A stretch of 32,775 nt of DNA from a virus, in IMG/VR virus record IMGVR_UViG_3300037517_003599, positions 1-32,775 of that record; one strand, written 5' to 3'. Shown here piece by piece: positions 5,625 through 32,775 of the stretch (its first letter is position 1; each line of letters begins with the position of its first letter). The notes beneath the pieces were generated by a model, which made no database searches, was not told where the DNA came from, and saw only the letters and a list, made by a program, of their open reading frames with translations. Position numbers and translations under genes: made by a program.

Positions 5625-5638
5625 TATACAATACTAAC

Positions 5639-10036: not shown

Positions 10037-10056
10037 AATTTTAAAAAATGTACATA

Positions 10057-10089
10057 TTGTTCAATAATTTAAAGTATAATGTATATTTA
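10057..10089 (+). promoter_or_regulatory. Candidate Bacteroidetes-type promoter
   Basis: This lies in the largest intergenic gap of the window (10037-10107, 71 bases). TTG at 10057-10059, a 22-base spacer and TATATTTA at 10082-10089 fit the flavobacterial pattern TTG-N17-23-TAnnTTTG, with the last base A instead of G. Initiation would fall about 10-15 bases before the ATG at 10108. A TATAAT at 10075-10080 overlaps and gives an alternative sigma70-like -10. In DNA this AT-rich, chance matches are common. Confidence 0.33.
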
Positions 10090-10107
10090 TAATAAAAAAA
10101 CTTAAAT

Positions 10108-10794
10108 ATGGGATATTTAAACAATTCCTCAATTGTTATCGATGCAGTTCTTACTAAGAAGGGTAGAGAATTGTTGGCAAGAGGACAAAATGAATTTAGA
10201 GTAGCTTATTTTGCATTAGCTGATGATGAGATAGATTATAGTTTATGGAATAGTGACCACCCTTTAGGCAGTGCTTACTATGGTAGAACCATCGAAAATC
10301 TACCAATTACTGAAGCTGTAACTGATGAAACTCAGGTTATGAAATACCCATTAGTAACACTTCCTAAGAATACTATAAGAATACCTGTAGTATCAGTTGC
10401 ACAAAATTCATATACATTTAAATCACCAACAGATAGAATAACGATTACTCCAAATACTGTGAATTTTCCAAGTGGAAACATTGCATTAGGGTACACTGCT
10501 GTACTTAGTGATAGTGATGCAGCAACTTTTGTTAGTGTGACACCATCACCTGCACAGTCAGCGGGTCAAGATACTGCGAGTAGTACACCACTTGCTATTA
10601 GTGATTTAGAATCATCACAAACAGTATCGGTAAGTGGAACGTCATTTACTCTTTCAGGTAAGTTCTCTACAATTAGATCTAAAAAAGCAACTTTAACCAT
10701 AATTGGAAATGAGACAGGAGGCAGAGTAACTATTGAATTAACAATTAATAGATTAACTCAAACTAATTCTTCTGCTGCAAACATCACAATTTAA
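10108..10794 (+). CDS. Conserved myovirus virion structural protein with Ig-like C-terminal domain
   Basis: A 228-residue protein. The first 95 residues (MGYLNNSSIVIDAVLTKKGRELLA, then FALADDEIDYSLWNSDHPLGSAYYG and YPLVTLP) match a family I recall from T4-like marine and environmental myoviruses, annotated only as structural protein. Residues about 100-228 are Ser/Thr-rich beta strands ending in a 'TLTIIGNETGGRVTIELTINR' type strand pair, which suggests an immunoglobulin-like fold. It begins a second structural block after a 71-base gap with a candidate promoter, and is followed 11 bases later by another virion protein. The exact role is unknown; a tail or baseplate component is inferred. Confidence 0.6.
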   Translation: MGYLNNSSIVIDAVLTKKGRELLARGQNEFRVAYFALADDEIDYSLWNSDHPLGSAYYGRTIENLPITEAVTDETQVMKYPLVTLPKNTIRIPVVSVAQNSYTFKSPTDRITITPNTVNFPSGNIALGYTAVLSDSDAATFVSVTPSPAQSAGQDTASSTPLAISDLESSQTVSVSGTSFTLSGKFSTIRSKKATLTIIGNETGGRVTIELTINRLTQTNSSAANITI

Positions 10795-10805
10795 AAATAT
10801 AAAAT

Positions 10806-11888
10806 ATGTTCGTTAGATTTCAAGCTGATGATGTTGTTCCAAATCAACAGGAAACTGTTACAAGAGCAATGTTCTCGAATAATGTAGGTAATTTAACTAC
10901 ATTCTTCACATCCTCTGCTCAAACAGCAGCTCAAAAAACGTATTACTACGAATTGTTTAATAGTGCATCAAACGCACCAACTGCGGAAGCTCAATTCTCT
11001 ATTGCATTTGGACATCGATTTGGTTCAGGATCTGAAAGTGAGGGTGGTCAAGTGGATGATACTCCATCAAGAGCTATATATTCTCAGTATAGACAATTAT
11101 GTTTAGATGCGGGAATTAAATCATTTACAAATAGTGGAGTTAATTCTAACTTTATATATGTTTTGAATTTTAATAGGTCAAGACTTAAAGATGGCATTGA
11201 TGAAGGTAATATTGAAATAAATCTACATCATTTATCAGGATCTCAGTTCATAAACGGCCCGGGGCATAATAGAACTCACACAGGTTCTAACGTAACTTTA
11301 GGAGCTCCAAGAGCTTTAAGATTGATAGATGATAGTAAAATATCATCTGCAACAATGACATCAGCAGGAGAGGTATATAATATTGTATCAGGTTCTATTG
11401 AAAATGGAGTTTTCAATTCAGCATCACCTAAATATTATGGTAAATTATTTCCAAGATTAGGTGTAGTTGTTTTAGATGGAGTAAAGTTAGACTTATCTGC
11501 ATCATTCGGTACTGTTACAGGTTCTGATATTGCAGGAGATAATGCTTACAAATTGTATAAATCATTGTCAGGATCGGCAGCAAGACTTACTGATTTAAGT
11601 GGTGATGTTTTAGGATTGTCGGCAAGAAGCAAAGAATATGTTAAATCTACTCATTACTTTGTTAGAGCAAGAGCATCTCAATTTAATTTCTCAAATAATC
11701 CTACATTCGTAACAGGTTCAGATGGAGATTTAGCCGTATCAGATTTCATTAATGATCCTAAAGTATATATTACTACTATAGGTTTATATGATGACAATAA
11801 AAATCTATTGGCTGTAGCAAAATCAAGTAAGCCTATACAGAAATCTTTTAGAAAAGAAACACTAATTGAAGTTAAGTTAGATTATTAA
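10806..11888 (+). CDS. Virion structural protein, paralog A with TTIGLY C-terminal module
   Basis: A 360-residue protein that is clearly paralogous to the C-terminal 370 residues of the next gene. Shared landmarks include TRAMFSNNVGNL versus TRGMFSNGIANM, QFSIAFGH.FGSGS versus QFSLAYGH.EGSGS, EGGQ.(D/N)DTP(S/T)RAI, and IN(L)..HLSGS(Q/E)FI. A YNIVSGSIE(N/D)GV.NS..P.Y(Y/F)GKL(F/Y)P stretch and the ending YITTIGLYD.N.NL.AV.K are also shared. Residues about 318-360 form this last module. There is no catalytic motif and no signal peptide. Phage structural function (tail or baseplate) is inferred from the neighbours. The upstream leader is A-rich (AAAATATAAAAT) without a Shine-Dalgarno sequence. 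Confidence 0.6.
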   Translation: MFVRFQADDVVPNQQETVTRAMFSNNVGNLTTFFTSSAQTAAQKTYYYELFNSASNAPTAEAQFSIAFGHRFGSGSESEGGQVDDTPSRAIYSQYRQLCLDAGIKSFTNSGVNSNFIYVLNFNRSRLKDGIDEGNIEINLHHLSGSQFINGPGHNRTHTGSNVTLGAPRALRLIDDSKISSATMTSAGEVYNIVSGSIENGVFNSASPKYYGKLFPRLGVVVLDGVKLDLSASFGTVTGSDIAGDNAYKLYKSLSGSAARLTDLSGDVLGLSARSKEYVKSTHYFVRARASQFNFSNNPTFVTGSDGDLAVSDFINDPKVYITTIGLYDDNKNLLAVAKSSKPIQKSFRKETLIEVKLDY

Positions 11889-11898
11889 AAAATACTAA

Positions 11899-14760
11899 AT
11901 GAATCCTATATTATTTGAAAATTATTTAGCACTTCCCGAATCACTTCGAGAAAGATATTTGCAACAATTATTTCCTAATGAAGGCGATAGGATTCAATTT
12001 AGGGCAGATTTGAATGCATATTTATTAGGAGGTTCTTCTAATAACGATGAAGATAGTCAATCTACAGATGGTAGTGTGGGTGGTACGGGCACAATCCCCC
12101 TATCAACCGCAGTTGTTAATATTAACTATTGTGAAAATTTAATTAATTTAAGAACAGTAAGTGTTCCTATTACATATAATAGCACAGAACCTAATAGTTT
12201 AGAAAGGGAAGTTTCAAATGCAGTAAGTTTTTACGTAAATAATAATATACCTTTTAGATATGCAGTAAATCAAGAAGCACCTCCGTTAACTTGTTTTATT
12301 CCTACATTCACACTTCCTACACCTACACCTGTACCTACTATTGTTACTATATCACCTACGTCTACTATACGAATTACACCAACAAGTACTCGTATACCAA
12401 GTGTAACACCTACACCAACACCGCTACCAACGAGTACATACTATGTACTTTCATCTTGTAATGGTAGTGGAGATATAATAACAACACAAGTTCCGCAAAC
12501 AAATCAATTATATGTTGATTTTTCAGAAGTTGATACAGGAATATTCTACACATATAATGGAAATACTGTTAGATTAACCTCTACAGAAGGTAGAAATTTT
12601 GTAAATAATTTACAAACAGTTGCGGGAAGAACTAATTGTCAAGATGATAGAAGACCTGTAGCAGGTCTCATAAGTGTAAATCTAAAATTTGTTAATTGTA
12701 ATATTGAGGAATCATTAAGTTCTAATCTACTACCTAACAGTTTGAGTGTAATTACGCCTAATTCATCTCAAATAAAAACAATACCTTTAGGATTTGTAAA
12801 TTTAGGTAAAAATAATACTGTACTATTTCCAAATTCTTATAATAAGAATATTGATGAAATATTTACAAAAGCAGGAGTATATACTATTAATTTTCCAAGT
12901 ATTGCTGATTATAATACTCCGAGTCCGTTAACATTTACATTAAATTCTGTTGCTGATACTCAGGATTTAACTGTATCGTATACAAAGGATTGTGATGGTG
13001 AGATTATTATAGATCCTCCTCCTGTTTCTGAGAATGTATACACAACATTTAGTGGATTAATATCTCCTGATTTACAGTCTGCTTACAGATCCCGTTGTTC
13101 AAGTAATGATTATAAACCGGGATTGTTCGTGCCGGGGGAAATCCTCTTGAACGGACAATCCATAGGTAGAGGTACAGCAAGTGTTTCTTTACAAATAGGT
13201 AGTAGATATACTGTAGAGTTTAGAAAACCATCTCATCCATATTTCACATTTAGTGATGGTAGTCCTAATAATTTTACATTTGTAGCATCATCTGCAACTA
13301 CGAGGATAGAGAGTTTATTTACGCCTTCTTTTGCAAAGATAACAGGTGGTTTATCGGTAGTTACAAATATATCACCTAATATAGCAGGTGTTAACTTCAA
13401 TCCAAAGATTTATATAAGTAATATAGGTCAGATTGGGGAAGGTTCGGTGAATGATTATCAATTAGAGTCGGGAGAGTACACCCTATACTTCGAACCTATA
13501 AAAGTTGCGGGGATGATATTTATCACTCCTAAACAAAGAACTATAACCATAGGACTTTGCGACACTCTAAAAATAAGTGAGACTTACACAGGAGTAGCAT
13601 TACCAACAAATTATTGGTTAAAAAAAATAGATTCTATAGATCAAATGAAATATAACTCTGTTATAACAAGAGGAATGTTTTCAAATGGTATAGCTAATAT
13701 GGTATCATATTATAAATCAAGTATATCAGACTCTTTAGATAATTTCTATACGCATGTATACCATGAACGAATAGCCCATCCTACATCTTCTATACAATTT
13801 AGTTTAGCTTATGGTCACTCTGAAGGTTCAGGATCAAATGATGAGGGAGGTCAGTACAACGATACCCCTACAAGAGCCATATTTGGACAGTACCGAAGTA
13901 TAATCGTAGGAAATACTTCCAATACCATAAATCTATCAGGTACTCCTACAAAGCATTTCTATGCTATTTCTTATCAGAAAGACAGAAGAGATACAAGAGC
14001 TGATTATAATGCTTTAGAATTAAACATAGCACATTTATCAGGATCTGAATTTATAAGTAGTTCTAATATGAGATATCATACGGGATCTAATGTTAGATTG
14101 GGGGGTAGAGGCAAAGTTTTACGTTTAATATCAGATTATAAAATAAACAATAATCCGAGTAGAGCAACACCATCAGCTCCATTAGAATATAATATAGTAT
14201 CAGGTTCTATAGAAGATGGAGTCTACAATAGCAATAATCCTCATTATTTTGGCAAACTGTATCCAAGTTTAGGATTAGTATTACTCGATGCTAATAAACT
14301 TGATGTATCTGCATCATTAGGTACTGTAACTACTCGTGAAATAGATGGTAAGAATCAATTAAAACTATTTACAGCTATTTCAGGTGCTGCTTTATACACA
14401 GATATAAGTGGGGATAAATTAGGTATGAAGGCAAGATCTACTAAAGAGGAGTTATCTTTTTACTACTATATACATGTAAAGAACAAAGAATTTAACTATT
14501 CAAATAATCCAAGTATATACAATACAGATGGTATTGATATATTAAAGTATGGAGTTGGTAGTAATCAGATAGCATCTTCCCAAATTTTAGATAATACTGC
14601 TGTTATAAATACTAATTTTATAAGTAGACCTACTACATACATAACTACTATTGGATTATATGATGAAAATAGAAATTTAATAGCTGTTGGTAAGTTAAGC
14701 AATCCTGAATTGAATAATTTTACTGAGGAGGTAATGTTCACTGTAAAACTAAAGTTTTAA
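11899..14760 (+). CDS. Virion structural protein, paralog B with Pro/Thr linker insertion
   Basis: A 953-residue protein in three parts. Residues 1-130 are a unique N-terminus. Residues about 136-176 are a Pro/Thr-rich linker whose core (TISPTSTIRITPTSTRIP) is nearly the same as in the 762-residue protein at 3336. It is followed by 'YYVLSSC...TGIFYTYNG...C', related to 'YYELSGC...TGIIYTYTG...C' in that same protein. The middle (about 250-570) contains beta-rich repeats. Residues about 580-953 are a paralog of the whole 360-residue protein encoded just upstream, including EGGQYNDTP, HLSGSEFI and the TTIGLYDENRNLIAV ending. The gene looks like a structural protein that acquired a fiber-like N-terminal extension by recombination. 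Function is inferred from context only. Confidence 0.6.
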   Translation: MNPILFENYLALPESLRERYLQQLFPNEGDRIQFRADLNAYLLGGSSNNDEDSQSTDGSVGGTGTIPLSTAVVNINYCENLINLRTVSVPITYNSTEPNSLEREVSNAVSFYVNNNIPFRYAVNQEAPPLTCFIPTFTLPTPTPVPTIVTISPTSTIRITPTSTRIPSVTPTPTPLPTSTYYVLSSCNGSGDIITTQVPQTNQLYVDFSEVDTGIFYTYNGNTVRLTSTEGRNFVNNLQTVAGRTNCQDDRRPVAGLISVNLKFVNCNIEESLSSNLLPNSLSVITPNSSQIKTIPLGFVNLGKNNTVLFPNSYNKNIDEIFTKAGVYTINFPSIADYNTPSPLTFTLNSVADTQDLTVSYTKDCDGEIIIDPPPVSENVYTTFSGLISPDLQSAYRSRCSSNDYKPGLFVPGEILLNGQSIGRGTASVSLQIGSRYTVEFRKPSHPYFTFSDGSPNNFTFVASSATTRIESLFTPSFAKITGGLSVVTNISPNIAGVNFNPKIYISNIGQIGEGSVNDYQLESGEYTLYFEPIKVAGMIFITPKQRTITIGLCDTLKISETYTGVALPTNYWLKKIDSIDQMKYNSVITRGMFSNGIANMVSYYKSSISDSLDNFYTHVYHERIAHPTSSIQFSLAYGHSEGSGSNDEGGQYNDTPTRAIFGQYRSIIVGNTSNTINLSGTPTKHFYAISYQKDRRDTRADYNALELNIAHLSGSEFISSSNMRYHTGSNVRLGGRGKVLRLISDYKINNNPSRATPSAPLEYNIVSGSIEDGVYNSNNPHYFGKLYPSLGLVLLDANKLDVSASLGTVTTREIDGKNQLKLFTAISGAALYTDISGDKLGMKARSTKEELSFYYYIHVKNKEFNYSNNPSIYNTDGIDILKYGVGSNQIASSQILDNTAVINTNFISRPTTYITTIGLYDENRNLIAVGKLSNPELNNFTEEVMFTVKLKF
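12333..12398 (+). repeat. Shared Pro/Thr linker cassette, copy 2
   Basis: The partner of 4362-4427, inside the 953-residue protein gene. The similarity continues more weakly into the small Cys-containing domain that follows in both proteins. Confidence 0.75.
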
Positions 14761-14763
14761 GAT

Positions 14764-16434
14764 ATGTATGAACTTTCAGTATTTGAAAAAATAAGGAAAT
14801 CTGATTATACGATACTTCCATATGAAGCTAATAAATCATATTCAATAGATTCCAATAAAGCAAAATCTTTAGGATATTCATATAAAATAGCTAATTATTT
14901 TAAAGATTCGTTACCTATAAGTTCATCTAAGTATTATGCAGTAAATGCACCAACAAGTTCAGATGGTTCTTATAATTATCTTAATTGGAGAGTTATAAAT
15001 CATATGTATTATAGAAATGCATATGATTCTTATGAATCTTGGGAAGGTAATTCTAAAAGATATACTGAAAAAAGATTATTTACAACGTCAAGTATTATAT
15101 CTGCTCCATATCTTGATATGGGAGATGGTTTTAGGAAAGGTTCTGTAAGAATAACAAGTAATAATTTAGATTTAAGAGATGATTCTAACAATAATATTTA
15201 TGATTATAGTATAAATTCATCGAGTCTTGTAGATTCTAACTATTTAGATGCCTACTTTGGATTTCAGAACTTATATCATCATACTAAAAAAGGTTTTGGA
15301 ACAGGTATTTCAAAAGATTTCTCATTTGAATCGAATACTATTGGAGAATCATTGCATTTCAAAACTTATAATGTAGGTTTAAGTGATGGTATAAAAATAA
15401 ATAATACGGGTAGTGGTGCTAAACTTGATTTCATAGGAACAAGTTACGCAGAAATACCACATTATGAGCAGTTATCTTATGAATTATCAGAAGATTTTAC
15501 ATTGAGTTTTTGGTTACAGGCTCCGATAAGCCAAAGTAACACTACATTTACTACTAATTCTATAATAACTAAAAAAAGTTATAGTAATATTATACAATCA
15601 GGCGAATTTGATGTAATTACTGACAGTGGATACTTGAAAAGAAACTACATAAGCTCAAGTATTTCATATACTCCTGTTGAATATTATCCATATGACGTAT
15701 CGATATACAACCAAACAGCAGGTTCTGACGTTGGTAAAATACTTTTTAAAAGATCTGATGGTGTAAAAACTATGTCTATGGAAAGTACGTCATCTATAAA
15801 TGATGGAAATTATCACCATGTATGTGTAACCAAAAGTAATAATTTATTTAAATTATACATTGATGGTGCATTACAAACATCGGCTTTTGATGTAAATAAT
15901 GAGCCTACAAATGCCCATACAATAATTTTGGGAGCTGACGATAAGAAGGGAACAAAACAATATTTAGGATCTATAGATGAATTAAGATTCTATAGTAAAG
16001 CTATGACAAATACAGAGATATCTACATCTTTGGCAAACTCTTCAAACGCATTAGCATATCAAACTATAAATGTTGGAAATGTATTCTATAGAAGAGGGGA
16101 AGTTATTATAACATCACCTATAAAAAAATATCATAATATATTAAAAAATCAGCAGTGGAATTTATCTTATAAGAATAAATATGTAATTTATGAATATGAA
16201 ACATTAGTTAAGATACGAGCAGGTTCGTTTAACAAAACTATGAATCCAACATCTATTCAGAGTCCTAAGTCAAATTTATATCTTAATGATTTTACGGGAT
16301 CATTAGCTCCTTATGCAACAACAATAGGATTGTATAATAAAAACTTTCAATTAGTTGCTGTAGCTAAATTTGGAAGACCTCTCAAAATGAGAGATGATGT
16401 TGATATAAATGTTATAATTAAAATGGATTATTGA
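14764..16434 (+). CDS. LamG-domain virion protein with TTIGLY C-terminal module
   Basis: A 556-residue protein with a LamG / concanavalin A-like jelly roll at about residues 215-420. The clear signature is DFTLSFWLQAP, then DGNYHHVCVTK, LYIDG, and YLGSIDELRFYSKAMTNTEI. Such domains bind carbohydrate or serve as beta-sandwich spacers in phage fibers. The N-terminal 200 residues (rich in Tyr, Ser and Asn) are unique. The C-terminal 45 residues (ATTIGLYNKNFQLVAVAKFGRP) repeat the module that ends the two preceding proteins. It lies 3 bases after the previous stop, so it is co-transcribed. A tail-tip or baseplate-decorating structural role is inferred; sugar binding is possible but not shown. Confidence 0.65.
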   Translation: MYELSVFEKIRKSDYTILPYEANKSYSIDSNKAKSLGYSYKIANYFKDSLPISSSKYYAVNAPTSSDGSYNYLNWRVINHMYYRNAYDSYESWEGNSKRYTEKRLFTTSSIISAPYLDMGDGFRKGSVRITSNNLDLRDDSNNNIYDYSINSSSLVDSNYLDAYFGFQNLYHHTKKGFGTGISKDFSFESNTIGESLHFKTYNVGLSDGIKINNTGSGAKLDFIGTSYAEIPHYEQLSYELSEDFTLSFWLQAPISQSNTTFTTNSIITKKSYSNIIQSGEFDVITDSGYLKRNYISSSISYTPVEYYPYDVSIYNQTAGSDVGKILFKRSDGVKTMSMESTSSINDGNYHHVCVTKSNNLFKLYIDGALQTSAFDVNNEPTNAHTIILGADDKKGTKQYLGSIDELRFYSKAMTNTEISTSLANSSNALAYQTINVGNVFYRRGEVIITSPIKKYHNILKNQQWNLSYKNKYVIYEYETLVKIRAGSFNKTMNPTSIQSPKSNLYLNDFTGSLAPYATTIGLYNKNFQLVAVAKFGRPLKMRDDVDINVIIKMDY

Positions 16435-16446
16435 TATTGAAAAAAT

Positions 16447-16650
16447 ATGAAAAATAAATTAAAAGTAGAAAAATATATAAATAGTAACAGTACTAATATA
16501 TTAAATATATTTGAAGAAGATTATGATTTTACTAATTTTATAAAAATAAAAAATAAATCATATAAGAAAATACATAATAGTGCTGATAAACTAAACAATA
16601 AAACAAAAAAAAATTACTACAATAGAATAATTGATATTGATGAAGATTGA
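16447..16650 (+). CDS. Small hypothetical Lys/Asn-rich protein
   Basis: A 67-residue, highly charged protein (many Lys, Asn, Ile) with an acidic end (RIIDIDED). No family is recognised and there is no membrane segment or signal peptide. It follows the LamG gene by 12 bases and precedes the first repeat-protein gene by 18 bases. Its last 30 bases, plus the spacer after it, are repeated at 18871-18921, where they no longer belong to an open frame. It may be a real small gene or a remnant; very AT-rich coding makes small frames less certain here. Confidence 0.45.
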   Translation: MKNKLKVEKYINSNSTNILNIFEEDYDFTNFIKIKNKSYKKIHNSADKLNNKTKKNYYNRIIDIDED

Positions 16651-16671
16651 AGGTATTAAAAATTAATTATG
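16621..16671 (+). repeat. 51-bp direct repeat, left copy
   Basis: This covers the last nine codons plus stop of the 67-residue gene, the spacer, and the ATG of the 732-residue gene. It matches 18871-18921 at 48 of 51 positions by hand count. Both copies end exactly at a start codon. Confidence 0.9.
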
Positions 16672-18867
16672 AATATAGTAAACACATATTATTTATCAAA
16701 ATTAGTTCAAATATTATCTGAAGGATATAATTATATAGTATTAAAAGAAGCAGTTTCATATTCAGTGTCTAAAGAATATCTTAAAATAGAAAGAAGTCCT
16801 GAAGCAGAATCAAGAGTTAAATCAATATTTGGAAAGTTGAAATCATTACCGAATGCAAGTCAACTTGATAAACGTGGTTGGAGAATAGCATTTCCATATG
16901 CAGAAGACTCTACTGAATTTGAAATACAATCTATATTAGAACCTTACGATTTCTCTATAAAAAACTACAAAGATGGATTAGCATTAGATACTAAAAGTAA
17001 CAAAGAGATAGCAATAGGTAAAGCACTCAACAAAATATCAAAAAAAGAACCTGACGCAAAAGAACTTTTAGATAGATATGCAGCTATCAAAGGTAAAGGT
17101 GCTACAAATAAAGATGAGGACTTAATGATAGTATTTTCAAGTGCTAAGTATGATATCATAGGAATGTCTACAGGTAGAGAATGGAGAAGCTGTATGAATG
17201 TTATAGATGGTGGCAATAAAAACTATGTAAAGTTAGATATAAAAGAAGGTTCAATAGTATGCTATCTTACTACAATTGGTGACACTAATTTAAAAAAACC
17301 ATTAGGAAGAGTTTTAATAAAACCATATTTAAACACAGAAAATAAAGAAGACGTAATATTATATGCTGAACTTAGAACTTATGGTTCTATACCAAATCCT
17401 GACAAATTTATGGATGAAATAGATGACTATATGGAAAAAACACAAAAGTTGTTTGGAACCTATAAAAGATTAGGATGTTTATATAATGATAGTGAAAGAG
17501 ATTCTGTAGAAGACAAAGAAACTATACAAAAAAGAGCATTTACAAAATTAAAAGATGATAGAATATTATCTAAAGAAGAATTCATAGCACTTCCTTTAAA
17601 GAATAAAAGACAGTATATTGATAAGACATTAACAGAAAAATATATAAGATTAGAAAATTATGAATATAGTTTTGCATCTCAGAGTCAAAAAAAAGAATAT
17701 ATAGAAAAAAGAGTTAAATCAGCATATGACTTAACAGACCAACAATATAAAGATGCATCTGACAATTTAAAAAAACTTTATATAGAGAAATTAATTGGGA
17801 GAGGATTCAATTTATCCGAACAACAATATGAACATTCACCTGACAACTTGAAACAATTTTATGTAGAAAATAAAGTTCGAAAAGGATTGGAGTTATCTGA
17901 TGAACAATATAAAAACGCATCAGATATAACAAAAGAACTTTATATAGAAAATATATTTTTTGATGAAAAAAATAATTATGATTTATCCAATCAACAATAT
18001 AAGGATACACCAAATGATTTAAAACAACTTTATATAAAAAAATCAATTGAAAAAGGATCTATAATATCCAACCAACAATATGAAGATTCACCTAATGATT
18101 TAAAACAACTTTACATAAAACAAGCGATTGAAAACGGATATAGACTATCGGATCAACAATACAAAGATGCACCTATCAATCTAAAAAAACTTTATATAGA
18201 AGAAAGAGTTGGAGAATACTATGCGATATCTGACCAACAATATAATGATACACCTAACAATATAAAACAATTCTTTATAAAAAAAAGAATTGAAATAGGA
18301 TATGAATTATCAAATGAACCATATAAAGATGCACCTAATGATTTAAAACAACTTTATATAGAGAAAATACTTGAGAAAGGATATGAATTATCAAATGAAC
18401 AATATGAAAATTCACCTAATGATTTAAAACAACTTTATATAAGAAAATTAATTGAAGATGGATATCCAATATCGGATCAACAATATAATAATGCACCTAA
18501 TGATTTAAAACAACTTTATATAAGAAAATTAATTGAAAAAGGAAACTCCATAACATACCAACAATATGAAGATGCATCTGATAATCTCAAACAACTTCAT
18601 ATAAAACAACTGATTGAAAAAGGATATAAGCTACCTGATCAATTTTATGAAGAGGCATCTGATAACTTAAAACAAGTTTATATAGAAAAAATAGTTGCAT
18701 TAGGAATAAAACTATCTAATAAAAACTATAAAAATACATCTAATAAACTAAAAAAACTTTATATAGAAAAAATAGTTGAATTTGAACACGAATTATCTGA
18801 CCAACAATATGAAGATACACCTAATGATTTAAAAGAATACTATCTTAAATTAAAAAAATGGAATTAA
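16669..18867 (+). CDS. Phage protein with MSTGR/SCMN domain and 27-residue tandem repeats, paralog 1
   Basis: A 732-residue protein. Residues 1-297 are a globular N-terminal domain shared with the gene at 21705. Its core runs from IERSPEAESR through LDKRGWRIAFPYAEDSTEFEI to YDIIGMSTGREWRSCMN and PLGRVLIKPY. I recall similar 'MST.R.W.SCM' proteins in large phages without an assigned function. Residues 298-732 are about 16 repeats of 27 residues with consensus G..LS.QQY.DAPNDLKQLYI.K.IEK. Each repeat is probably two short helices, giving a solenoid. The last 13 units are very similar at DNA level. There is no signal peptide or membrane segment. The gene is bracketed by 51-bp direct repeats, suggesting cassette duplication or insertion. 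Function unknown; a binding or scaffold role is plausible for such a solenoid. Confidence 0.7.
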   Translation: MNIVNTYYLSKLVQILSEGYNYIVLKEAVSYSVSKEYLKIERSPEAESRVKSIFGKLKSLPNASQLDKRGWRIAFPYAEDSTEFEIQSILEPYDFSIKNYKDGLALDTKSNKEIAIGKALNKISKKEPDAKELLDRYAAIKGKGATNKDEDLMIVFSSAKYDIIGMSTGREWRSCMNVIDGGNKNYVKLDIKEGSIVCYLTTIGDTNLKKPLGRVLIKPYLNTENKEDVILYAELRTYGSIPNPDKFMDEIDDYMEKTQKLFGTYKRLGCLYNDSERDSVEDKETIQKRAFTKLKDDRILSKEEFIALPLKNKRQYIDKTLTEKYIRLENYEYSFASQSQKKEYIEKRVKSAYDLTDQQYKDASDNLKKLYIEKLIGRGFNLSEQQYEHSPDNLKQFYVENKVRKGLELSDEQYKNASDITKELYIENIFFDEKNNYDLSNQQYKDTPNDLKQLYIKKSIEKGSIISNQQYEDSPNDLKQLYIKQAIENGYRLSDQQYKDAPINLKKLYIEERVGEYYAISDQQYNDTPNNIKQFFIKKRIEIGYELSNEPYKDAPNDLKQLYIEKILEKGYELSNEQYENSPNDLKQLYIRKLIEDGYPISDQQYNNAPNDLKQLYIRKLIEKGNSITYQQYEDASDNLKQLHIKQLIEKGYKLPDQFYEEASDNLKQVYIEKIVALGIKLSNKNYKNTSNKLKKLYIEKIVEFEHELSDQQYEDTPNDLKEYYLKLKKWN
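17722..18864 (+). repeat. 81-bp in-frame tandem repeat array (27-residue units)
   Basis: About 14 close copies of an 81-bp unit, for example units starting at 18379 and 18460, exactly 81 bases apart. Each codes for (S/T)..QQY.(D/N)(A/S/T)(P/S)(N/D)(D/N)LKQLYI.K.IE. One unit (around 17890-17980) is about three codons longer. Two more degenerate units precede the array. The array stays in frame throughout, so it is protein-coding and not a satellite or CRISPR. Confidence 0.9.
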
Positions 18868-23976: not shown

Positions 23977-26709
23977 ATGGGTATAGAATCTTATGTAAAA
24001 AATGGTGCGAGATGGGATGGAGATACATTCTCATTAAAATATTTTAATGTATCAAGAAATTTCACCATTTTAAAAAAAGGTAAAAATACTATAACATTAA
24101 CTCCCGATCCTATTATAGTAAGAGGATCAAGTATTACAGTAGAATTAATAGATAGAGGTGGAAATAGTATTCCTGTAGAATATTCAAATCAAGTAACCTC
24201 AGATGGAACTATAATATTACAAGTAACTATTACAGACCAAGTATCATCAGGAACAGGTAAATTAATAATATTAGGTCAAGCACTTAGAGATGTTGATACA
24301 GGCAGATTATTAGATCAATCAGGAAGTAATTTAGTTTGGAGAGGGTTAACGCAGATAAAATCTACAGTTGAAGAATTTAAAATTCCAAAAGATACAGAAG
24401 ATATAGTATTCGAGAATAATCCAAAAGATATAAAAGTACGAGTAACTCCAATAGATGTATCGTATAGAGATAAATCAACAGATAGACCAACAATAAAAGC
24501 AGGAGCAGGTAGATTAACCTACTTCCCCGTAATAGAATCAAGTACAACTTCAGATAATATATTAAATAAACCATCTATATTTTCAAGTATAGGTAATAAT
24601 TCTATATCTAAAGTAGAGGAGCAGTCATCTGCAACGGCTTTGACTTCAATATCATCTACTGAGGGAAATCCAACAATTGTTAGTACTTTAGAAGAATTTA
24701 CATCGGATATGGTAGGAGGTACTATAGTAGCAACTCCTATAGTAGAAGATAGAGTTCCTCCAAATTTACAATCAAATATAGGGAGTGTAGCAGAATACTC
24801 AGGAAATATATTAGAGGTTTTAAACTCTACAACTATAGTAGTTGATACATTATTCTTCCATACGATAAATGCAGCATCAACTAAATTTGTTGTAGACTCT
24901 TTCGAGTCTATTGTATATTCTATAAATTTTAATAAAAATGTAAAAACTTCGGAAGGACAGAAAGTTACAGGATACGCAAAGATGTGTTTTGATAATGTAG
25001 CTACATCTAATGGTGTTATAGATAAAGTAAAAGTATCTGCCAAACCTATAGGATCTATTGGAGCACCTATGCTATTAGGTGACTTTGAAGTTATGCCACC
25101 CAATAAGATGCAGGATACAGGTAGTTTTACATTCGATCCTAAATATGGTATTGGGTACAAAAGTGTGGGAGAGGTCACCTCAAGTAACGATATATCAAAC
25201 TACTATGATTATAATGAATATACACTAAATACTAATGCAACATCTAATTCATTCGATAATTATAATTATGAAGTAGTAACAGGAGGTTTATCTGTAGCAA
25301 ATCCATCTCAAAGAAGTTCAAAAGTTACAAATGCAATTAACTTTGAATCACCTTTAGCATCATCCAATGTTACTGCATTATCAGTAAAGGATCAATATTT
25401 AGGATCAGCCAAATCAGGAACTAAGTATAAAATATCTTTAAATGCATTTTCAGAATATGACGCATCAAAGAAACCTCCAACAGCTCAAATATTTATAGAA
25501 GGGCCTTCAATACAAGAGGGAGGGGATACCTCAAATACATTTGGAACTCTTATTGATACGATAGAGGGAGGTAACGGAGAAAGACAAGATAATTTAGAAT
25601 ATTATTTTACAGCAGCATCAGATTCAGATAAGATAAAATTATCATTAGTTTTAAATACAGGTATTTGGGATTTTTCAAATATGAAAGTAGAACCTTCCTC
25701 ACCAACGGGTAATTCACCAAATGAGTTTTGTGTAATGGTTCCATTAGATAATCTACCTGTAAATAAGATAGATGAAGAATATGTTTTTGTTATTGATTTT
25801 TTAGATAAGAATGGAAATCCTACAAATTTAAATATTAATACTCAAAGTATTACTTTGAATAGTAATTCTACTTTAGATGAAAAATTAATAATAAATACCA
25901 TAAATAGTAGTCCTGATTTAAGAAATACTATTATAGGATTAGGATCTCAAGGAGTACAAGGAGTTCAAGGATCCCAAGGATTTCAAGGATATCAAGGATA
26001 TCAAGGTTCACAAGGATATCAAGGTTCTCAGGGAAGGCAAGGTTCTCAAGGTAACCAAGGAAATACAGGACTCCAAGGAGCAACAGGACTCCAAGGAGCA
26101 GTAGGAGCTCAAGGTAATCAAGGATTCCAAGGAATACAAGGAATACAAGGAACACAAGGTTTTCAAGGAAACCAAGGCCCTATAGGTTCACAAGGAGCAA
26201 CAGGAGTAGGACTTCAAGGGTCATCGGGAGTACAAGGATTCCAAGGGAATCAAGGATTCCAAGGAAATACAGGACTTCAAGGATCTTCATCAGACGTTGA
26301 TGTATCTGTTTCAAATTTGATAACAAGATTAGGACAGATTAATACATCCTATACTGTAGGTAACTCAACGGGAGTAACAGCTACTTTTTCAGGTAATGTA
26401 CAAACATCTCAGTTTATAACTGCCGATAACTTTATAACTACGTCAGATAAAAGACTAAAAGAAAATATAAATGAAATATCAAGTAGTTTAGATACATTGA
26501 GTAAATTTAATTCATATACATATATAAAAAATGGTCATAAAGATGCAGGATTTATAGCTCAAGAAGTTTTAGAAGTTATTCCATATATTATACAAGAAGG
26601 TACAGATGGATTCTTAACAATAAAAGATAGAGCTATTATAGCATATTTACATAGTGCAATAATTGAACTTTATCATAAGTTAAAGTGTATAGAAGATAGA
26701 TTAGATTAA
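23977..26709 (+). CDS. Tail fiber protein with collagen-like stalk and S74 self-cleaving chaperone
   Basis: A 910-residue fiber. Residues 1-650 are beta-rich structural domains. Residues 656 to about 770 are about 38 Gly-X-X triplets, mostly G-(F/Y/S/V/I/N)-Q, forming a probable triple-helical stalk. Residues about 815-910 are the peptidase S74 intramolecular chaperone of endosialidase-type fibers: [10 protein letters not shown] with Ser823 and Lys828 as the catalytic dyad (spacing of five as in known members), then AGFIAQEV and the coiled-coil end [16 protein letters not shown]. In known relatives this domain trimerises the fiber and then cuts itself off before Ser823. It is probably host-recognising. 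The next gene starts 1 base after the stop. High confidence for the S74 and collagen-like parts; the receptor is unknown. Confidence 0.85.
25942..26283 (+). repeat. Collagen-like GXQ coding repeat
   Basis: A tandem array of about 38 nine-base units centred on GGA-NNN-CAA, with some GGA-GCA-ACA (GAT) variants and one short break near 26207-26212 (GVGLQG). Glutamine at the third position of most triplets is unusual compared with animal collagen (Pro or Hyp), but is common in phage collagen-like stalks. Confidence 0.9.
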
Positions 26710-26710
26710 T

Positions 26711-27742
26711 ATGACAGTTCCTATATCAGGTTCTTTTTCTATGTTTGGAATATTGGATGCTACTACTATAGCAGGAGCTATATATTCGCATGGAGGATCC
26801 GTATCAGGAATAAATAATTTTAATCAATTAATATCACAATCAGTAGCTGCTTATTTTGACCCTGTGTATGCAGGAGTAATTGTTAATCCAATAGTAGATG
26901 TTTATAATACGGAACAATTTAGAAATTATCCAAAAGCAACAGCTACACCAACACCAACACCAACACCTGCTACTACACCAACACCTACGCCTACTATAAC
27001 GCCTACACCTACTGTAACACCTACGCCAACATCAACACCTACACGTACACCTACCCCAACTCCATGTCCTCTATATGGTACTTTCTTATATTCTTATCAA
27101 GAATGTATTGGATATGATTTATATACTTACTATGTATATGCTAATGGTTCTTGTGGTACATTTACGCAAGTAGTAAATATAGAATATAATTCATATTCTT
27201 GTGGATTCCCAACTCCTACACCTACACCTACACCAACGATTACACCTACACCAACACGTACAGCCACACCTACACCTACACCAACGATTACGCCTACACC
27301 TACTATTACACCTACGCCAACATCAACACCAACGATTACGCCTACACCTACTATTACACCTACGCCAACATCAACACCAACGATTACGCCTACACCTACT
27401 ATTACACCTACGCCTACGCCTACACCAACGATTACACCTACACCAACGATTACGCCAACGCCAACACCTACACCAACGATTACGCCTACACCAACACCTA
27501 CACCTACACCTTCATGTACTTGTTGGTCTTTTGAAAATGTAGGAGGAACTGTAGCAAATGTTTCATATGATGGATGTGGAATAGGTTCGACTCAAACTAA
27601 TATAGATATTGGAGATATAATATATAAATGTGTTACGTATGGAACAACTCCTACTCAAAATAGTGGAACTGTTGATATAACACCTTTATACACATCTTGT
27701 GATATTGATAGCGATTGCAGTGGTGGTGGCGGTGGTATATAA
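26711..27742 (+). CDS. Thr-Pro-rich fiber-associated protein
   Basis: A 343-residue protein. Residues 1-76 form a folded N-terminal domain ([34 protein letters not shown]). Residues 77-118 are a first Thr-Pro tract. Residues about 119-165 are a small domain with Cys and Tyr ([23 protein letters not shown]). Residues 167-267 are a second tract of about 100 residues, almost all TPTPT or TITPT. Residues 269-343 are a Cys-containing C-terminal domain ending SGGGGGI. It lies 1 base after the tail fiber stop and 34 bases before the glycosyltransferase cluster. The composition resembles glycosylated linkers of secreted proteins, making it the best candidate acceptor for the downstream enzymes (inference). 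A virion location is inferred from the related tracts in the baseplate-block proteins. Confidence 0.6.
27290..27433 (+). repeat. 48-bp tandem repeat coding for [16 protein letters not shown]
   Basis: Three units of 48 bases (27290-27337, 27338-27385, 27386-27433). The first two are identical by eye and the third is diverged near its end. They lie inside the longer Thr-Pro tract (27209-27511), built of ACA-CCA / ACG-CCT type codon pairs. Such arrays change copy number easily by slippage or recombination. Confidence 0.88.
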
Positions 27743-27776: not shown

Positions 27777-29018
27777 ATGAGTAATATTTTCGTTCAAATC
27801 GCAAGTTATAGAGATTTGCAATTGATTCCGACAGTTGAAGATATGATATCAAAAGCTAAAAATCCACAAAATTTAGTTTTTGGAATATGTTGGCAATACG
27901 GAGAAGAAGAGGATATAAATTATTTTGATAATAGAGATAATTTTAAAATAAAAAAGTATCACTATTCACAAAGTAAAGGATTAGGATGGGCAAGATCTGA
28001 AACAAATAATTTATATGATGGAGAAACTTATACTTTACAAATAGATTCACATCATAGATTTATTCAAGATTGGGATGAAATAGTATTAGAAGATTTTAAT
28101 CAGGCATTAAAATATAGTTCAAAGCCTATACTAACAACATATTGCACTCCATTTGATCCTAATGAATCAGAAGATTCTCGGATACAAATTCCATGTTTGA
28201 TGTCACAATATGAATTTAGTAATGATAAATTATTAATGAGTATGCCTTGGTATATACAAGATTATCAAAGTAGGAATACTATAATTAGGGCAAGAACTAT
28301 CAGTGGTCATTTTTATTTTACTTTTGGAAAATTTGTGGAAGATGTTCCATATGATCCTGAAATATATTTTGGAGGATATACTGAAGAAACAACAATGAGT
28401 TTAAGAGCATTTACTCATGGTTATGATATATTTAGTCCATATAGAATGGTTATGTGGCATGAGTATACGAGAAGCTACAGACCAAAACATTGGGAAGACC
28501 ATGGTACTAAAAGTACAACAGATAAAACAAGTACAGAAAGAGATATATTTGCAAGAAATAAAACGAGACAATTATTTGGTCAAGATGATTATGGTATAGA
28601 CATAGATAATCAATATGGATTAGGTAAAGAAAGAACTTTACATGATTATGAAGTTTACGGTGGTTTTGATTTTAAAAATTGTTTAATTCAGAGATATACT
28701 TTAGATGTAAATGAACCTCCAAATCCAATACCTTGGGAAGATAATTTTATTAAAACAGAGTATACTTTAGATTGTGTTTGGGATTTAGAATTTTTTAGAA
28801 ATCTAAATTTTAATAAACCTAAGTTTTTAACATTAGGCATTCACTCAGATTCAGACGAAATTTATAGAAAAGATTTTACAGATGATTCTTATATAAATTT
28901 AAGAACTAATTTCTATGAAGCAAAAATATATTCCGAAAAAGAACCTAAGAAAATAGTTATGTATCTATATGATGAAGATAAAGGTTGGAGTGAAAGATAT
29001 GAAAAATTATTTATATGA
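27777..29018 (+). CDS. GT60-like (Skp1-type) peptide GlcNAc transferase
   Basis: A 413-residue glycosyltransferase resembling the GlcNAc family (GT60), whose founding member adds alpha-GlcNAc from UDP-GlcNAc to a hydroxyproline of the protein Skp1 in Dictyostelium. The evidence is IFVQIASYRD at residues 4-13, a KGLGWARSE stretch near residues 67-75, then TLQIDSHHRF with Asp90-Ser91-His92 as the expected nucleotide-sugar metal site, followed by a WDE. A later 'FGGYTEETTMSLRAFTHGYDIFSPYRMVMWHEY' type region is also typical of the family. The last 120 residues are less conserved. There is no signal peptide or membrane anchor, so it acts in the cytoplasm. Its stop overlaps the next start (ATGA). 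Family call fairly sure; donor and acceptor are inferred. Confidence 0.75.
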   Translation: MSNIFVQIASYRDLQLIPTVEDMISKAKNPQNLVFGICWQYGEEEDINYFDNRDNFKIKKYHYSQSKGLGWARSETNNLYDGETYTLQIDSHHRFIQDWDEIVLEDFNQALKYSSKPILTTYCTPFDPNESEDSRIQIPCLMSQYEFSNDKLLMSMPWYIQDYQSRNTIIRARTISGHFYFTFGKFVEDVPYDPEIYFGGYTEETTMSLRAFTHGYDIFSPYRMVMWHEYTRSYRPKHWEDHGTKSTTDKTSTERDIFARNKTRQLFGQDDYGIDIDNQYGLGKERTLHDYEVYGGFDFKNCLIQRYTLDVNEPPNPIPWEDNFIKTEYTLDCVWDLEFFRNLNFNKPKFLTLGIHSDSDEIYRKDFTDDSYINLRTNFYEAKIYSEKEPKKIVMYLYDEDKGWSERYEKLFI

Positions 29019-30196
29019 GAATATTATTCATAGTAATTGGAAATAGTAGGCGAAGTAATTATCTAAACGGATATAATTTAAGATATGGAGGAGGAGGAGG
29101 ATCAGGTACTGATAGTAGTTCAATATTAGTAGCTGAGTACTTATCTAAATTAGGTAATGAAGTTGTAGTGTGTACAGATGCTTTAGAAAAAAATTTGGAA
29201 GATGAATACTCCAAAAAAACTAAAAATATATTAGGAGATAAGTACTATGGAGTACATTATACTAATATAAATTTAGATGGAATAGAGAATAAAACTTTTG
29301 ATATATTGGTTAGTATGTTATGGTTTGAAGACTATGATAAGTTACCTATAAAAGTCACTAAATCTATAATATATTGGTCTCATATGCAATGGATTTATGG
29401 TATAGACAATATTATAAATTATGCAATAAAAAATGATTTATCTATAAGAATAGTTCATATATCTAAATGGGAAAAATATATGAACTCAGAAGTAGTAAAT
29501 CATATAAAAAACAAATATATAGGTTTAGATATAGATTCAGCATTGATACCAAATCCTGTAATGGATGATATTATTAATGAAGTATTAGCTACTAAACCTA
29601 TTAGAAATAAGCATAAATTCATATTCCATGCGTCATGGGCAAGGGGAGGTAATGTAGCCTTAGAAGCAGTCAGACAATTAGATTATCCTGATAAAGAATT
29701 TCACTCATTTGATTATTTAATGAGCATACATCCTCATCAAGATTCTTTTTTTTATTTACATAATGGAGTTGATAAAAAAACACTATTTACACATTTAGCA
29801 GAGAGTGAATATTTTTTATATCCTTTATATACACCATATCAAGATGTTCATAAAGATACTTTTTCATGTGTTGTTGCTGAAGCAATTGCTTTGGGTGTAA
29901 TTCCCATAACATATAGATTAGGAGCATTACCTGAATATTTTGAAGATTATTGTATTTGGGTAGATCCTCCCGATGGAATAAGTTTAGAAGATATGCAAAA
30001 AGAACCATTATCAAAAGATATTGATGGTCACTTTAAAAATAATATATCAAAATTAATTGAAAAAATTGTATATTTAGAAAATAATATTTCTATAAAGGAA
30101 AATATTAGAAAAAGTGGCAGTGACTATATTATGTCAAAATTTAATATAATTATGATTGGTAATAAGTGGTTAAAATTAATAGATAGTATAATGTAA
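29015..30196 (+). CDS. GT4-type (GT-B) glycosyltransferase
   Basis: A 393-residue glycosyltransferase with two Rossmann-like halves. The N-terminus (MRILFIVIGNSRR, then a Gly-rich loop RYGGGGGSGTDSSS before a helix) is typical of GT-B acceptor domains. The C-terminal half has the retaining GT4-like donor site: ESEYFLYPLYTPYQDVHKDTFSCVVAEAIALGVIPITYRLGALPE, where the Glu in VVAEA and the following G-x-P/I-T strand bind the nucleotide sugar. The length fits the family. It overlaps the GT60-like gene by 4 bases and the next gene by 1 base (TAATG), so all three are probably translationally coupled. Sugar donor and acceptor cannot be read from the sequence. Confidence 0.75.
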   Translation: MRILFIVIGNSRRSNYLNGYNLRYGGGGGSGTDSSSILVAEYLSKLGNEVVVCTDALEKNLEDEYSKKTKNILGDKYYGVHYTNINLDGIENKTFDILVSMLWFEDYDKLPIKVTKSIIYWSHMQWIYGIDNIINYAIKNDLSIRIVHISKWEKYMNSEVVNHIKNKYIGLDIDSALIPNPVMDDIINEVLATKPIRNKHKFIFHASWARGGNVALEAVRQLDYPDKEFHSFDYLMSIHPHQDSFFYLHNGVDKKTLFTHLAESEYFLYPLYTPYQDVHKDTFSCVVAEAIALGVIPITYRLGALPEYFEDYCIWVDPPDGISLEDMQKEPLSKDIDGHFKNNISKLIEKIVYLENNISIKENIRKSGSDYIMSKFNIIMIGNKWLKLIDSIM

Positions 30197-30858
30197 TGAA
30201 AATAGAAAATTTCTTTGAAAAAGGTTACTATATAAATTTAGACAGGAGAGAAGATCGGAGATTAGAGTTTGAGTCTGAAATGAAAACTTATGGATTAGAT
30301 ACATTTTTTGAAAGAGTTTCAGCTGAGGATTCTATTAATGAATCATGTTACATAAGAAAACATCATTATTGTGCATTAACCTATTACAAATTATTTGAAA
30401 AAGTTTATGATAAAGGGTATGAAAATGTAGTTATCTTTGAGGATGATGCTTACTTTTATAATCATTCAGAAACTATATTAGGATATAATCTTGTTTGTGA
30501 TACCTTGGATGAATTGCAAGATTTTCCTGATTGGGATATGGTATATTTCGGAGGACATCCTGTTCATGAAGTTGATATAGTTTCAAAAACTCTTATGAGA
30601 GCTCCTACAATACTAACAACACATGCAGTTGGTTATAGAAGAAATGTTATAAAATTAATATTAGATACATACAAACCTTTCAATGAATCTGCAATAGATG
30701 GATGGTTAGGTCAAAGACATTATATAGTTAAATACTTAACTAATCCTATTGCAGTATGTCAGAGACATAGTAAAAGTGATTTAGATGCTTGGGGAAATTC
30801 TGTAGATGTGTATATGTTTAAACAAAGCTATAATTTAGTTAAAAAAAATTATAAATAA
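30196..30858 (+). CDS. GT25-family glycosyltransferase
   Basis: A 220-residue glycosyltransferase of family GT25, which includes bacterial LPS beta-galactosyltransferases and animal procollagen galactosyltransferases. The diagnostic opening is YYINLDRREDRR (residues 11-22), then ERVSAEDS, and the metal-binding VVIFEDDAYF with Glu82-Asp83-Asp84. Later landmarks are DMVYFGG, HAVGYRRN and AIDGWLGQ, which match GT25 order. The length matches short bacterial members. It begins at a TAATG overlap with the preceding glycosyltransferase. Galactosyl transfer is the best guess from the family and agrees with a UDP-galactopyranose mutase gene at the end of the cluster. The acceptor is unknown. Confidence 0.8.
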   Translation: MKIENFFEKGYYINLDRREDRRLEFESEMKTYGLDTFFERVSAEDSINESCYIRKHHYCALTYYKLFEKVYDKGYENVVIFEDDAYFYNHSETILGYNLVCDTLDELQDFPDWDMVYFGGHPVHEVDIVSKTLMRAPTILTTHAVGYRRNVIKLILDTYKPFNESAIDGWLGQRHYIVKYLTNPIAVCQRHSKSDLDAWGNSVDVYMFKQSYNLVKKNYK

Positions 30859-31673
30859 TGTCATATTTTATTGCACCAAGACTTCAAGGTAGAACAGGTA
30901 ATGTTATGTTTCAAATAGCTAATGCATATGCAAAGTCTTTAGAATATAGTATTCCATTAATAGTACCATCAGAAGAATCAGCTGTAGATCACCTTTCTCA
31001 AAATATTTTAAGAAATTTCAAATTTGAAAAAATTGATTATAATATTTTAGATAACTATAAAACTATTGAATCAACTTTTCATTATCAAGATTTAGAAGCT
31101 CCATCATATGATAAACCAACAAGATATGTTGGTTGGTTTCAATCTGAAAAATATTTTAAAAAATATTACGAAAATATTAGAAATGCCTATTATCCAACTG
31201 ATGAATTTATAAATAAAATTCACAATGATTTTAATTATATAGATGATGATGTATGTGCTATAAATGTTAGAAGAGGAGATTATTTGCATTTCCCAACAAG
31301 GCATCCTGTAGTAACTAAAGATTATATTATAGAATCTTTAAAATTAGTTCCTAAATGTAAAAAATATTTTATTCTGAGTGATGATATACCATGGTGTAAA
31401 GAAAATCTAAAAATAGATAATTCTATATTTATTGAAAACTATTGGGATTGGAAAGGACTTTGGTTAATGTCTCAATGTACTTATTTTATTATTTCAAATT
31501 CAACATATTCGTGGTGGGGTGCATATCTTTCTAAAAAACCTAATAAAAAAGTAATAGCTCCGAGTACATGGTTTGGGCCTGATATTCCTGAAAAAATTGA
31601 TGATATATATTGTGATGGTTGGATAAAAGTGGATACTAAATATTCAGATGGGAAAATTATATTAAATATATAA
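30858..31673 (+). CDS. GT11-family alpha-1,2-fucosyltransferase-like protein
   Basis: A 271-residue protein of the GT11 family, which transfers fucose from GDP-fucose to galactose in O-antigens and other glycans. Evidence: LQGRTGNVMFQIANAYA (residues 9-25, the N-terminal GT11 motif), INVRRGDY (135-142, the GDP-binding HxRRGDY motif, here with Asn in place of His), FILSDDIPWC, and ISNSTYSWWGAYL (212-224). All are in the usual order and the length is typical. It joins the previous gene by TAATG and the next by a 3-base gap. The host presumably supplies GDP-fucose, since no fucose-synthesis gene is visible here. Good confidence for family. Confidence 0.82.
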   Translation: MSYFIAPRLQGRTGNVMFQIANAYAKSLEYSIPLIVPSEESAVDHLSQNILRNFKFEKIDYNILDNYKTIESTFHYQDLEAPSYDKPTRYVGWFQSEKYFKKYYENIRNAYYPTDEFINKIHNDFNYIDDDVCAINVRRGDYLHFPTRHPVVTKDYIIESLKLVPKCKKYFILSDDIPWCKENLKIDNSIFIENYWDWKGLWLMSQCTYFIISNSTYSWWGAYLSKKPNKKVIAPSTWFGPDIPEKIDDIYCDGWIKVDTKYSDGKIILNI

Positions 31674-31676: not shown

Positions 31677-32297
31677 ATGAATACATTAGTAGTTATATCA
31701 AAATATAATGAGTATTCAGATTGGATTAATGAAATTAAGCATAATGTATTAGTATACGATAAATCTGAAAATCCTATAAAGAATTCTATTCAAAGACCTA
31801 ATATAGGGAGAGAGGCTGAAACTTTATTATATTATATTATTAATAATTATTATAATTTACCTGAAATAACTATATTTTTACAAGGAGATCCAAGATCTAA
31901 TCCCATATCTTATACATATCAAGAAGTATTAAATATAATAAATAGTAATCATAAATATGAATTAAAAAATATATGTACTTTTGATGGTATATGCAATTTA
32001 AAACAGTATTGGTTAAAAAGTTGTTATGTATTAAATAATATTCTTTTTGATAATAACAGTATTGTAAAATATAGTTCAGGATGTCAATACATTATTCCAA
32101 GTAACAGCATTACACAAAGACCTATTGAATTGTATAAATTATTATATAATAAAATTTTGCAATATGGTGATAAGCCGTTAAATGATAAAAAAGAAAATTT
32201 GGAAGATGGTATAGATGCTTGGACATTAGAGTTGATATGGGGAAGTATATTTGATACAAATATGCCATTAAAAGATAATTATCATTTATTTTTATAA
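31677..32297 (+). CDS. DUF3431-like protein, probably a glycosyltransferase-related enzyme
   Basis: A 206-residue protein resembling the DUF3431 family: LVVISKYNEYSDW at the start, then VLVYDKS, RPNIGREAETLLYYIINNY, LPEITIFLQGDP. This 'NE..W...YNK...NxGRE..TyL.yI..nY..LP....F.QG' pattern is common in proteins found in glycan gene clusters of bacteria, algae and fungi. No enzyme activity is known to me. Its place between the GT11 gene and the mutase gene, in the same strand and spacing style, supports a role in making or attaching the same glycan. The first 100 residues support the family call; the C-terminal half is not distinctive. Confidence 0.6.
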   Translation: MNTLVVISKYNEYSDWINEIKHNVLVYDKSENPIKNSIQRPNIGREAETLLYYIINNYYNLPEITIFLQGDPRSNPISYTYQEVLNIINSNHKYELKNICTFDGICNLKQYWLKSCYVLNNILFDNNSIVKYSSGCQYIIPSNSITQRPIELYKLLYNKILQYGDKPLNDKKENLEDGIDAWTLELIWGSIFDTNMPLKDNYHLFL

Positions 32298-32310: not shown

Positions 32311-32775
32311 ATGTACGATTATTTAATTGTAGGGAGTGGATTTTACGGATCTATATGTGCCTATGAACTGAATAAAAGAGGTTTTAGAGTTTGTGTTATA
32401 GATAAGAGGAAACACATAGGAGGCAACTGCTATACGTCAAACAGAGATGGTATTAATGTTCACGAATATGGCCCTCATATATTCCATACCTCAAATAAAG
32501 AAGTTTGGGATTGGATAAATCAATTTGCTGAATTTAATAACTTTACATTAAGACCCGTAGCTTCTTATAAGAATGAAATATACTCACTACCTTTTAGTAT
32601 GTGGACTTTTACAAAATTTTGGGGAGACGTATCACCAAACATAGCAAAAGAACTTATAAGATTACAATCTAAACATATAGATGTTCCTCAAAATTTAGAA
32701 GAACAAGCTATAAAGTTAGTAGGAACTGAAGTATATGAAGCATTGATAAAAGGGTATACTGAAAAACAATGGAGA
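32311..32775 (+). CDS. glf: UDP-galactopyranose mutase (3' end outside window)
   Basis: The first 155 codons of a UDP-galactopyranose mutase, which converts UDP-galactopyranose to UDP-galactofuranose using reduced FAD. The frame is open to the end of the window. Evidence: the FAD-binding Rossmann motif YLIVGSGFYGSICAYEL at residues 4-20, VIDKRKHIGGNCYT, then VHEYGPHIFHTSN (the conserved 'YG.H.FHT' motif), YSLPFSMWTF, and KGYTEKQW at the edge. Full-length members have about 370 residues. It starts 13 bases after the DUF3431-like gene. It provides a galactofuranose donor and so predicts a galactofuranosyl step in the cluster. High confidence. Confidence 0.9.
   Translation, partial: MYDYLIVGSGFYGSICAYELNKRGFRVCVIDKRKHIGGNCYTSNRDGINVHEYGPHIFHTSNKEVWDWINQFAEFNNFTLRPVASYKNEIYSLPFSMWTFTKFWGDVSPNIAKELIRLQSKHIDVPQNLEEQAIKLVGTEVYEALIKGYTEKQWR

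Follow-up and report, generated by a model that had tools for sequence, protein, structure and literature searches.

Glycosyltransferase family GT60 includes T. cruzi TcOGNT2 and Dictyostelium Gnt2, which place alpha-GlcNAc on Thr residues of mucin-like proteins (PMC3769586, PMC8724618). The Thr-linked alpha-GlcNAc is documented for TcOGNT2 (PMC3769586), and in the mucins of T. cruzi DTU I this sugar is extended with Galf (PMC7504415). The same family holds Skp1 GnT1, which acts on hydroxyproline (PMC8724618). A survey of GT-A enzymes groups GT60 with GT27, two families of which the DxH motif is the hallmark and which have polypeptide Ser/Thr acceptors (PMC7185993). Among phages, glycoproteins of the Xanthomonas phage XacN1 were detected by proteomics (PMC5852040). 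Phage GT60 genes are already annotated as glycosyltransferases, as in PHROG 24687 and XacN1 ORF334. To our knowledge, reports of glycosylated structural proteins in phages are rare, and the acceptors known so far are few. In mycobacteriophage Che8/Rita, phage-encoded glycosyltransferases have reportedly been linked to virion protein glycosylation by Freeman et al. in 2023 (cited in PMC11256854); this system is said to differ from the present one in the phages concerned and in having capsid proteins as acceptors.

The GT60 protein described here is encoded in the window, which is the entire IMG/VR record IMGVR_UViG_3300037517_003599 (32,775 bp). It resembles the mucin-type enzymes TcOGNT2 and Gnt2 in its PF11397 domain, its DxH motif and its Thr-rich acceptors, the latter being presumed for the phage. 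Unlike them, it is phage encoded, has neither a membrane anchor nor a Golgi, is linked at the gene level to its presumed acceptor, and carries an extra small C-terminal beta domain that is common to bacterial GT60s. With Skp1 GnT1 it shares the family and the character of a soluble cytoplasmic enzyme. However, the acceptor of Skp1 GnT1 is a single hydroxyproline in Skp1, and the enzyme depends on a prolyl hydroxylase; a scan of the window with PF13640 found no prolyl-hydroxylase-like gene. We know of no Skp1 in phages or bacteria.

Family membership and predicted fold

The phage origin of the record, proposed in the earlier note, is borne out by relatives of a T4-like baseplate wedge protein (phrog_219) and of DNA primase and by a collagen-like/S74 fibre protein, while positions 1 to 25000 of the window gave no match to phage records with megablast. 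The GT60 gene occupies positions 27777 to 29018 on the plus strand, starts with ATG and encodes 413 residues, exactly as first delimited. The two segments that had been singled out as family hallmarks, FVQIASYRD and QIDSHHRF, correspond to residues 5 to 13 and 88 to 95. The assignment to GT60 was confirmed with the Pfam model PF11397 (“GlcNAc”), which the protein matches with an E value of 2e-59 and a score of 202 bits (cut-off, 21 bits), in two stretches that cover profile positions 2 to 351 of 352. Placement in another GT-A family had been named as the outcome that would speak against the assignment, and it was this GT60 model that the protein matched, well over the cut-off. PHROG 24687 (“glycosyltransferase”) matches the protein over its whole length (2e-86). 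Sequence searches of the PDB with the protein and with profiles retrieved no GT60 or GT27 relative, and the PDB holds no eukaryotic GT60; matches to ephrin receptor (kinase) sequences were weak and attributed to chance.

The protein is divided into a GT-A domain (approximately residues 1 to 305) and a small C-terminal beta domain (approximately residues 312 to 413). Structure prediction gave an AF2 model from a 32-row alignment with a pLDDT of 93, whose nearest structures are the polypeptide GalNAc-transferases of GT27. This family came first in both the Foldseek and the VIA-align searches. In VIA-align, rows 1 to 29 were all GT27 polypeptide GalNAc-transferases (Z 18.7 to 22.9, with 260 to 305 residues aligned), and the best family outside GT27 reached Z 17.2.

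The residues D90 and H92 of the DxH motif (D90-S91-H92), the C-terminal His H228, E204 and G200 are invariant among 32 viral and bacterial relatives, and the E203/E204 motif is present in the protein. A profile comparison aligned the DSH of GT60 with the DSH of GalNAc-T2, and the GT60 segment GGYTEETTMSLRAF with the GalNAc-T2 segment GGENLEISFRVW, with the DxH and GGxxE motifs of the two proteins in register. This motif alignment (pairwise E 0.0064, HHalign probability 6%) is weak when taken alone and agrees with the predicted fold. GT27 is thus the best structural match (Z 22.9) and shares the DxH and GGxxE motifs with the window protein, although it gives no significant sequence match to it. 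In GT27 enzymes, a ricin-type lectin domain stands at the C-terminus; in the phage protein, the C-terminal 102 residues (312 to 413) are predicted to form a separate, small and mainly beta domain. This domain is kept in viral and bacterial GT60s and found no confident match in the PDB (none with E < 0.2); it might bind the acceptor or the glycan. On the evidence of sequence and predicted fold, the window protein belongs to GT60.

Linkage of GT60 genes to Thr-Pro tracts

The proline-rich tracts that had been noted beside the GT60 gene belong to a Thr-Pro repeat protein of 343 residues with 53 TP dipeptides (26711 to 27742, plus strand), whose gene precedes that of GT60 with 34 bases in between. 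The HMM scan returned no functional assignment for this protein, and scans of the TP proteins as a group, made with their sequences outside the repeats, gave no indication of function. From its sequence and from the adjacency statistics given below, this protein is probably the target of the GT60 enzyme.

The adjacency was explored among viral GT60 relatives, of which 40 came from a search with the single protein and others, more distant, from a profile search that gave at least 595 relatives. A gene was taken as TP-rich when it encoded at least six [ST]P dipeptides per 40 residues, and the same-strand gene directly upstream of GT60 was scored. This upstream gene was TP-rich in 40 of the 88 viral loci (21/47 in clade A and 19/41 in clade B), whereas the gene downstream was TP-rich in none of the loci of either clade. 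At bacterial GT60 loci the upstream gene was TP-rich in 0 of 35. Bacterial GT60 genes (L108 to L187) are spread over many phyla, with examples in Acidobacteria, Verrucomicrobia, Burkholderiaceae, Enterobacterales, Bacteroidetes and Actinobacteria, and those loci that were tested showed no TP-rich gene directly upstream.

The remaining genes at these loci served to set an expected rate. With one locus per 90%-identity cluster, the upstream gene was TP-rich in about 32% against 5.8% expected, and with 70% clusters in 20% against 4.5%. With 60% single-linkage clusters (n = 10) the values were 9% and 3% (z 1.2), an excess that is not significant. Given so few clusters, the independence of the pairings rests on the tree and on the lack of homology among the neighbours. 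Indeed, nine groups could be distinguished among the 40 TP proteins encoded upstream, with no detectable homology between groups outside the repeats, and mapping the TP-neighbour label on the GT60 tree required eight changes, seven of them forced by well-supported branches of what is a quick tree with some long branches.

Control TP genes were retrieved with a DNA pattern that makes no reference to GT60, which gave 64 TP loci. None of the 47 genes downstream of these control genes matched a Pfam glycosyltransferase family, one of them being a carbamoyltransferase, and GT60 followed in 0 of 56; a GT60 gene was present somewhere in the locus in 5 of the 64. A general hotspot for glycosyltransferase insertion after TP genes is not supported by the 0/47 result. 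The TP-tract pattern was found in 20 of 24 GT60-bearing records against 1 of 28 gp6-related records without GT60, the latter being shorter (0.75 Mb in total vs 3.97 Mb) and mostly from other samples. These comparisons bear out the proposed association of GT60 with Thr-Pro tracts, which is strong, non-random and extends across nine unrelated proteins.

The composition of the tracts points in the same direction. Pro-rich tracts upstream of GT60, picked regardless of their Thr content, contain 37% Thr and 4% Ser, a figure that is supportive only, since Thr is also abundant (31%) in the other Pro-rich tracts of these loci.

In approximately half of the viral loci, the gene directly upstream of GT60 is not a TP gene, and room must therefore be left for other acceptors or for action in trans. 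In the window, two further proteins recognized from their sequences are possible acceptors in trans, one that combines collagen-like tracts with Thr-Pro tracts (21 TP; 3336 to 5624, plus strand) and one with Thr-Pro-rich segments (13 TP; 11899 to 14760, plus strand). At nine loci from both clades, mostly without TP genes (L011, L012, L014, L015, L020, L066, L072, L078 and L105), GT60 lies beside a conserved minus-strand gene encoding approximately 115 to 147 residues (MSKIYQP...).

The glycosylation cassette

The collagen-like tail-fibre protein, with a C-terminal S74 intramolecular chaperone recognized by HMM matches, is encoded at 23977 to 26709 on the plus strand, and this part of the record is for this reason taken as a fibre/adhesin region. 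Here GT60 is the first gene of a glycosylation cassette, with all genes on the plus strand. A GT4-like glycosyltransferase (29015 to 30196) starts four bases before the GT60 gene ends, a position also held by its relatives; its Glycos_transf_1 match lies below the curated cut-off, and it matches PHROG 2170 with 1e-8. It is followed by glycosyltransferases of families GT25 (30196 to 30858; HMM 4e-7, over the cut-off) and GT11 (30858 to 31673; 4e-29), the latter being the family of alpha-1,2-fucosyltransferases. A DUF3431 protein (31677 to 32297; 3e-14) comes next, and then a UDP-galactopyranose mutase (GLF; 32311 to 32775; residues 1 to 160 of the 378 of TIGR00031, 9e-46), of which only the N-terminal part is present because the record ends within the gene.

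The cassette content was counted at loci with a TP gene upstream of GT60, which gave 61 proteins in clade A and 49 in clade B. Clade A cassettes contain GLF (10/61), GT25 (9/61) and GT11 (8/61), together with GT4-like proteins and FkbM methyltransferases. Clade B cassettes contain HtrL_YibB (10/49) and carbamoyltransferases (3/49), together with GT2, GT10 and PLOD-like glycosyltransferases. DUF3431 occurs once in each set, as the window protein itself in clade A and as a protein from a relative in clade B. When viral sequences were scanned with the GT11 protein of the window, four loci were returned, too few for a control. The mutase of the phage cassette parallels the Galf that is carried on alpha-GlcNAc in the mucins of T. 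cruzi DTU I (PMC7504415).

In six loci (L028, L029, L051, L052, L057 and L059), inspected by eye, a GLF-like gene lies directly upstream of GT60 rather than downstream, which makes it seem that the GT60-GLF pairing survives rearrangement. Carbamoyltransferases recur in clade B cassettes and also beside GT60 in the distant phage L039. XacN1 ORF334 and proteins of the Stenotrophomonas phages CM1 and RAS14 are GT60 relatives with 32 to 34% identity over their full length. The cultured jumbo phages XacN1 (L043, 12001 to 15718) and RAS14 (L044, 12001 to 15818) encode a carbamoyltransferase directly after GT60. XacN1 is thus like the window phage in encoding a GT60 relative, and it has glycoproteins (PMC5852040). 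XacN1 and RAS14 differ from the window in this carbamoyltransferase and in having no TP-repeat gene beside GT60.

Proposed pathway and its alternatives

We consider it fairly likely that the GT60 enzyme starts mucin-type O-glycosylation on Thr residues in the Thr-Pro tracts of the upstream protein, and that the cassette extends the glycan. In the activity that we infer, the donor would be a nucleotide sugar, for which the precedent of the family suggests UDP-GlcNAc, and a metal coordinated by H228 and the DxH motif (D90, H92) would mediate its binding. The enzyme would attach one HexNAc, with retention of configuration, to the side chains of Thr residues within the Thr-Pro tracts, the acceptor being the protein encoded directly upstream, a presumed fibre protein that would be located in the virion. 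The downstream glycosyltransferases and UDP-galactopyranose mutase would extend this first sugar into a glycan possibly containing Gal/Galf and Fuc, and the result would be a stiff linker, shaped like a bottle brush, on an adhesin or fibre.

Phage glycosyltransferases are often serotype-conversion or DNA-modifying enzymes. This general precedent, together with the viral GT60 genes that lie away from TP genes and beside ordinary structural or replication genes, would fit an action on host surface polysaccharide, lipid or phage DNA, the gene being near fibre genes as a place where sugar genes insert. We regard this as unlikely, since the fold and motifs of GT60 group it with polypeptide transferases, TP genes are generally not followed by glycosyltransferases, and an upstream-only link to nine unrelated TP proteins is unexpected from an insertion hotspot.

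The earlier note had called the enzyme a Skp1-type GT60. The family part of this name stands; the Skp1-type part is less likely, because GT60 also holds mucin-type enzymes that place alpha-GlcNAc on Thr, and the evidence favors these. Indeed, Thr- and Pro-rich acceptor domains are at hand, in the form of the 53-TP neighbour, its Thr-dominated class of tracts and their non-random linkage to GT60. In a Skp1-like mode, a prolyl 4-hydroxylase would modify Pro of the TP tracts, and GT60 would then glycosylate the hydroxyproline, as Skp1 GnT1 does within the same family (PMC8724618). The gene content of L039 also speaks for it, with a 2OG oxygenase near two GT60 domains, an O-fucosyltransferase domain and PT-rich proteins. 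Against it, a PF13640 prolyl-hydroxylase-like gene is absent from the window and from the five large TP-linked relatives (G002, G006, G008, G017 and G020), and occurs in 4 of the 24 GT60-bearing records, a count that refers to fragments and to the PF13640 family only. This mode is therefore improbable for the window enzyme.

The gene run of L039 (IMGVR_UViG_3300047546_001263, 4446 to 18198) starts with the 2OG-Fe(II) oxygenase and a 917-residue fusion of O-fucosyltransferase (PF10250) and GT60. It continues with a carbamoyltransferase, a second GT60, a second carbamoyltransferase, an NDP-sugar epimerase and three PT/AAPT-rich proteins; a run of this type is also seen in L038. It is a possible hydroxyproline-type counterpart, and this combination of genes means that a hydroxyproline version may exist elsewhere.

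That the reaction type is right and the substrate another, such as UDP-GalNAc as donor or the collagen-like fibre or Ser/Thr-rich linkers as main acceptor, would agree with the several TP or collagen-like proteins encoded in the record, with the half of the relatives that lack an adjacent TP gene, and with the use of UDP-GlcNAc by GT60 and UDP-GalNAc by GT27, which shows that donor use has changed in this group, but no partner other than the adjacent TP gene was found to recur, and Thr predominates in its tracts, which makes this reading, too, improbable.

Returning to mucin-type glycosylation of the upstream protein, the open-access literature gave nothing direct on PF11397 in phages or on TPTP or mucin-like phage proteins, and neither the GT60-Thr-Pro pairing nor the mucin-type reading was found in the literature searched. 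What is new here is the recurrent pairing with unrelated Thr-Pro proteins, which provides a linked candidate acceptor, and the mucin-type reading itself. The acceptor is predicted from gene order, together with a residue and a peptide motif (Thr in TPTP), and this specificity makes the idea directly testable.

The pairing recurs in many uncultured phages, with repeat proteins that are unrelated to one another, and this suggests that parts of their particles bear mucin-like sugars of their own. We give about even chances to the wider reading, in which phage mucin-type O-glycosylation is widespread and combines GT60 with Thr-Pro virion domains that were acquired repeatedly and with an exchangeable set of elongation genes (UDP-galactopyranose mutase, GT11, GT25, carbamoyltransferases and methyltransferases). 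The fibres would then be coated with glycans, could change their sugar surfaces and would be comparable to eukaryotic mucins. If true, the finding would provide soluble enzymes for making alpha-O-GlcNAc peptides and would offer a function for the Thr-Pro repeats of many environmental phage genomes. Mucin-type O-glycosylation with a GT60/GT27 initiating enzyme would then extend to the viruses of bacteria.
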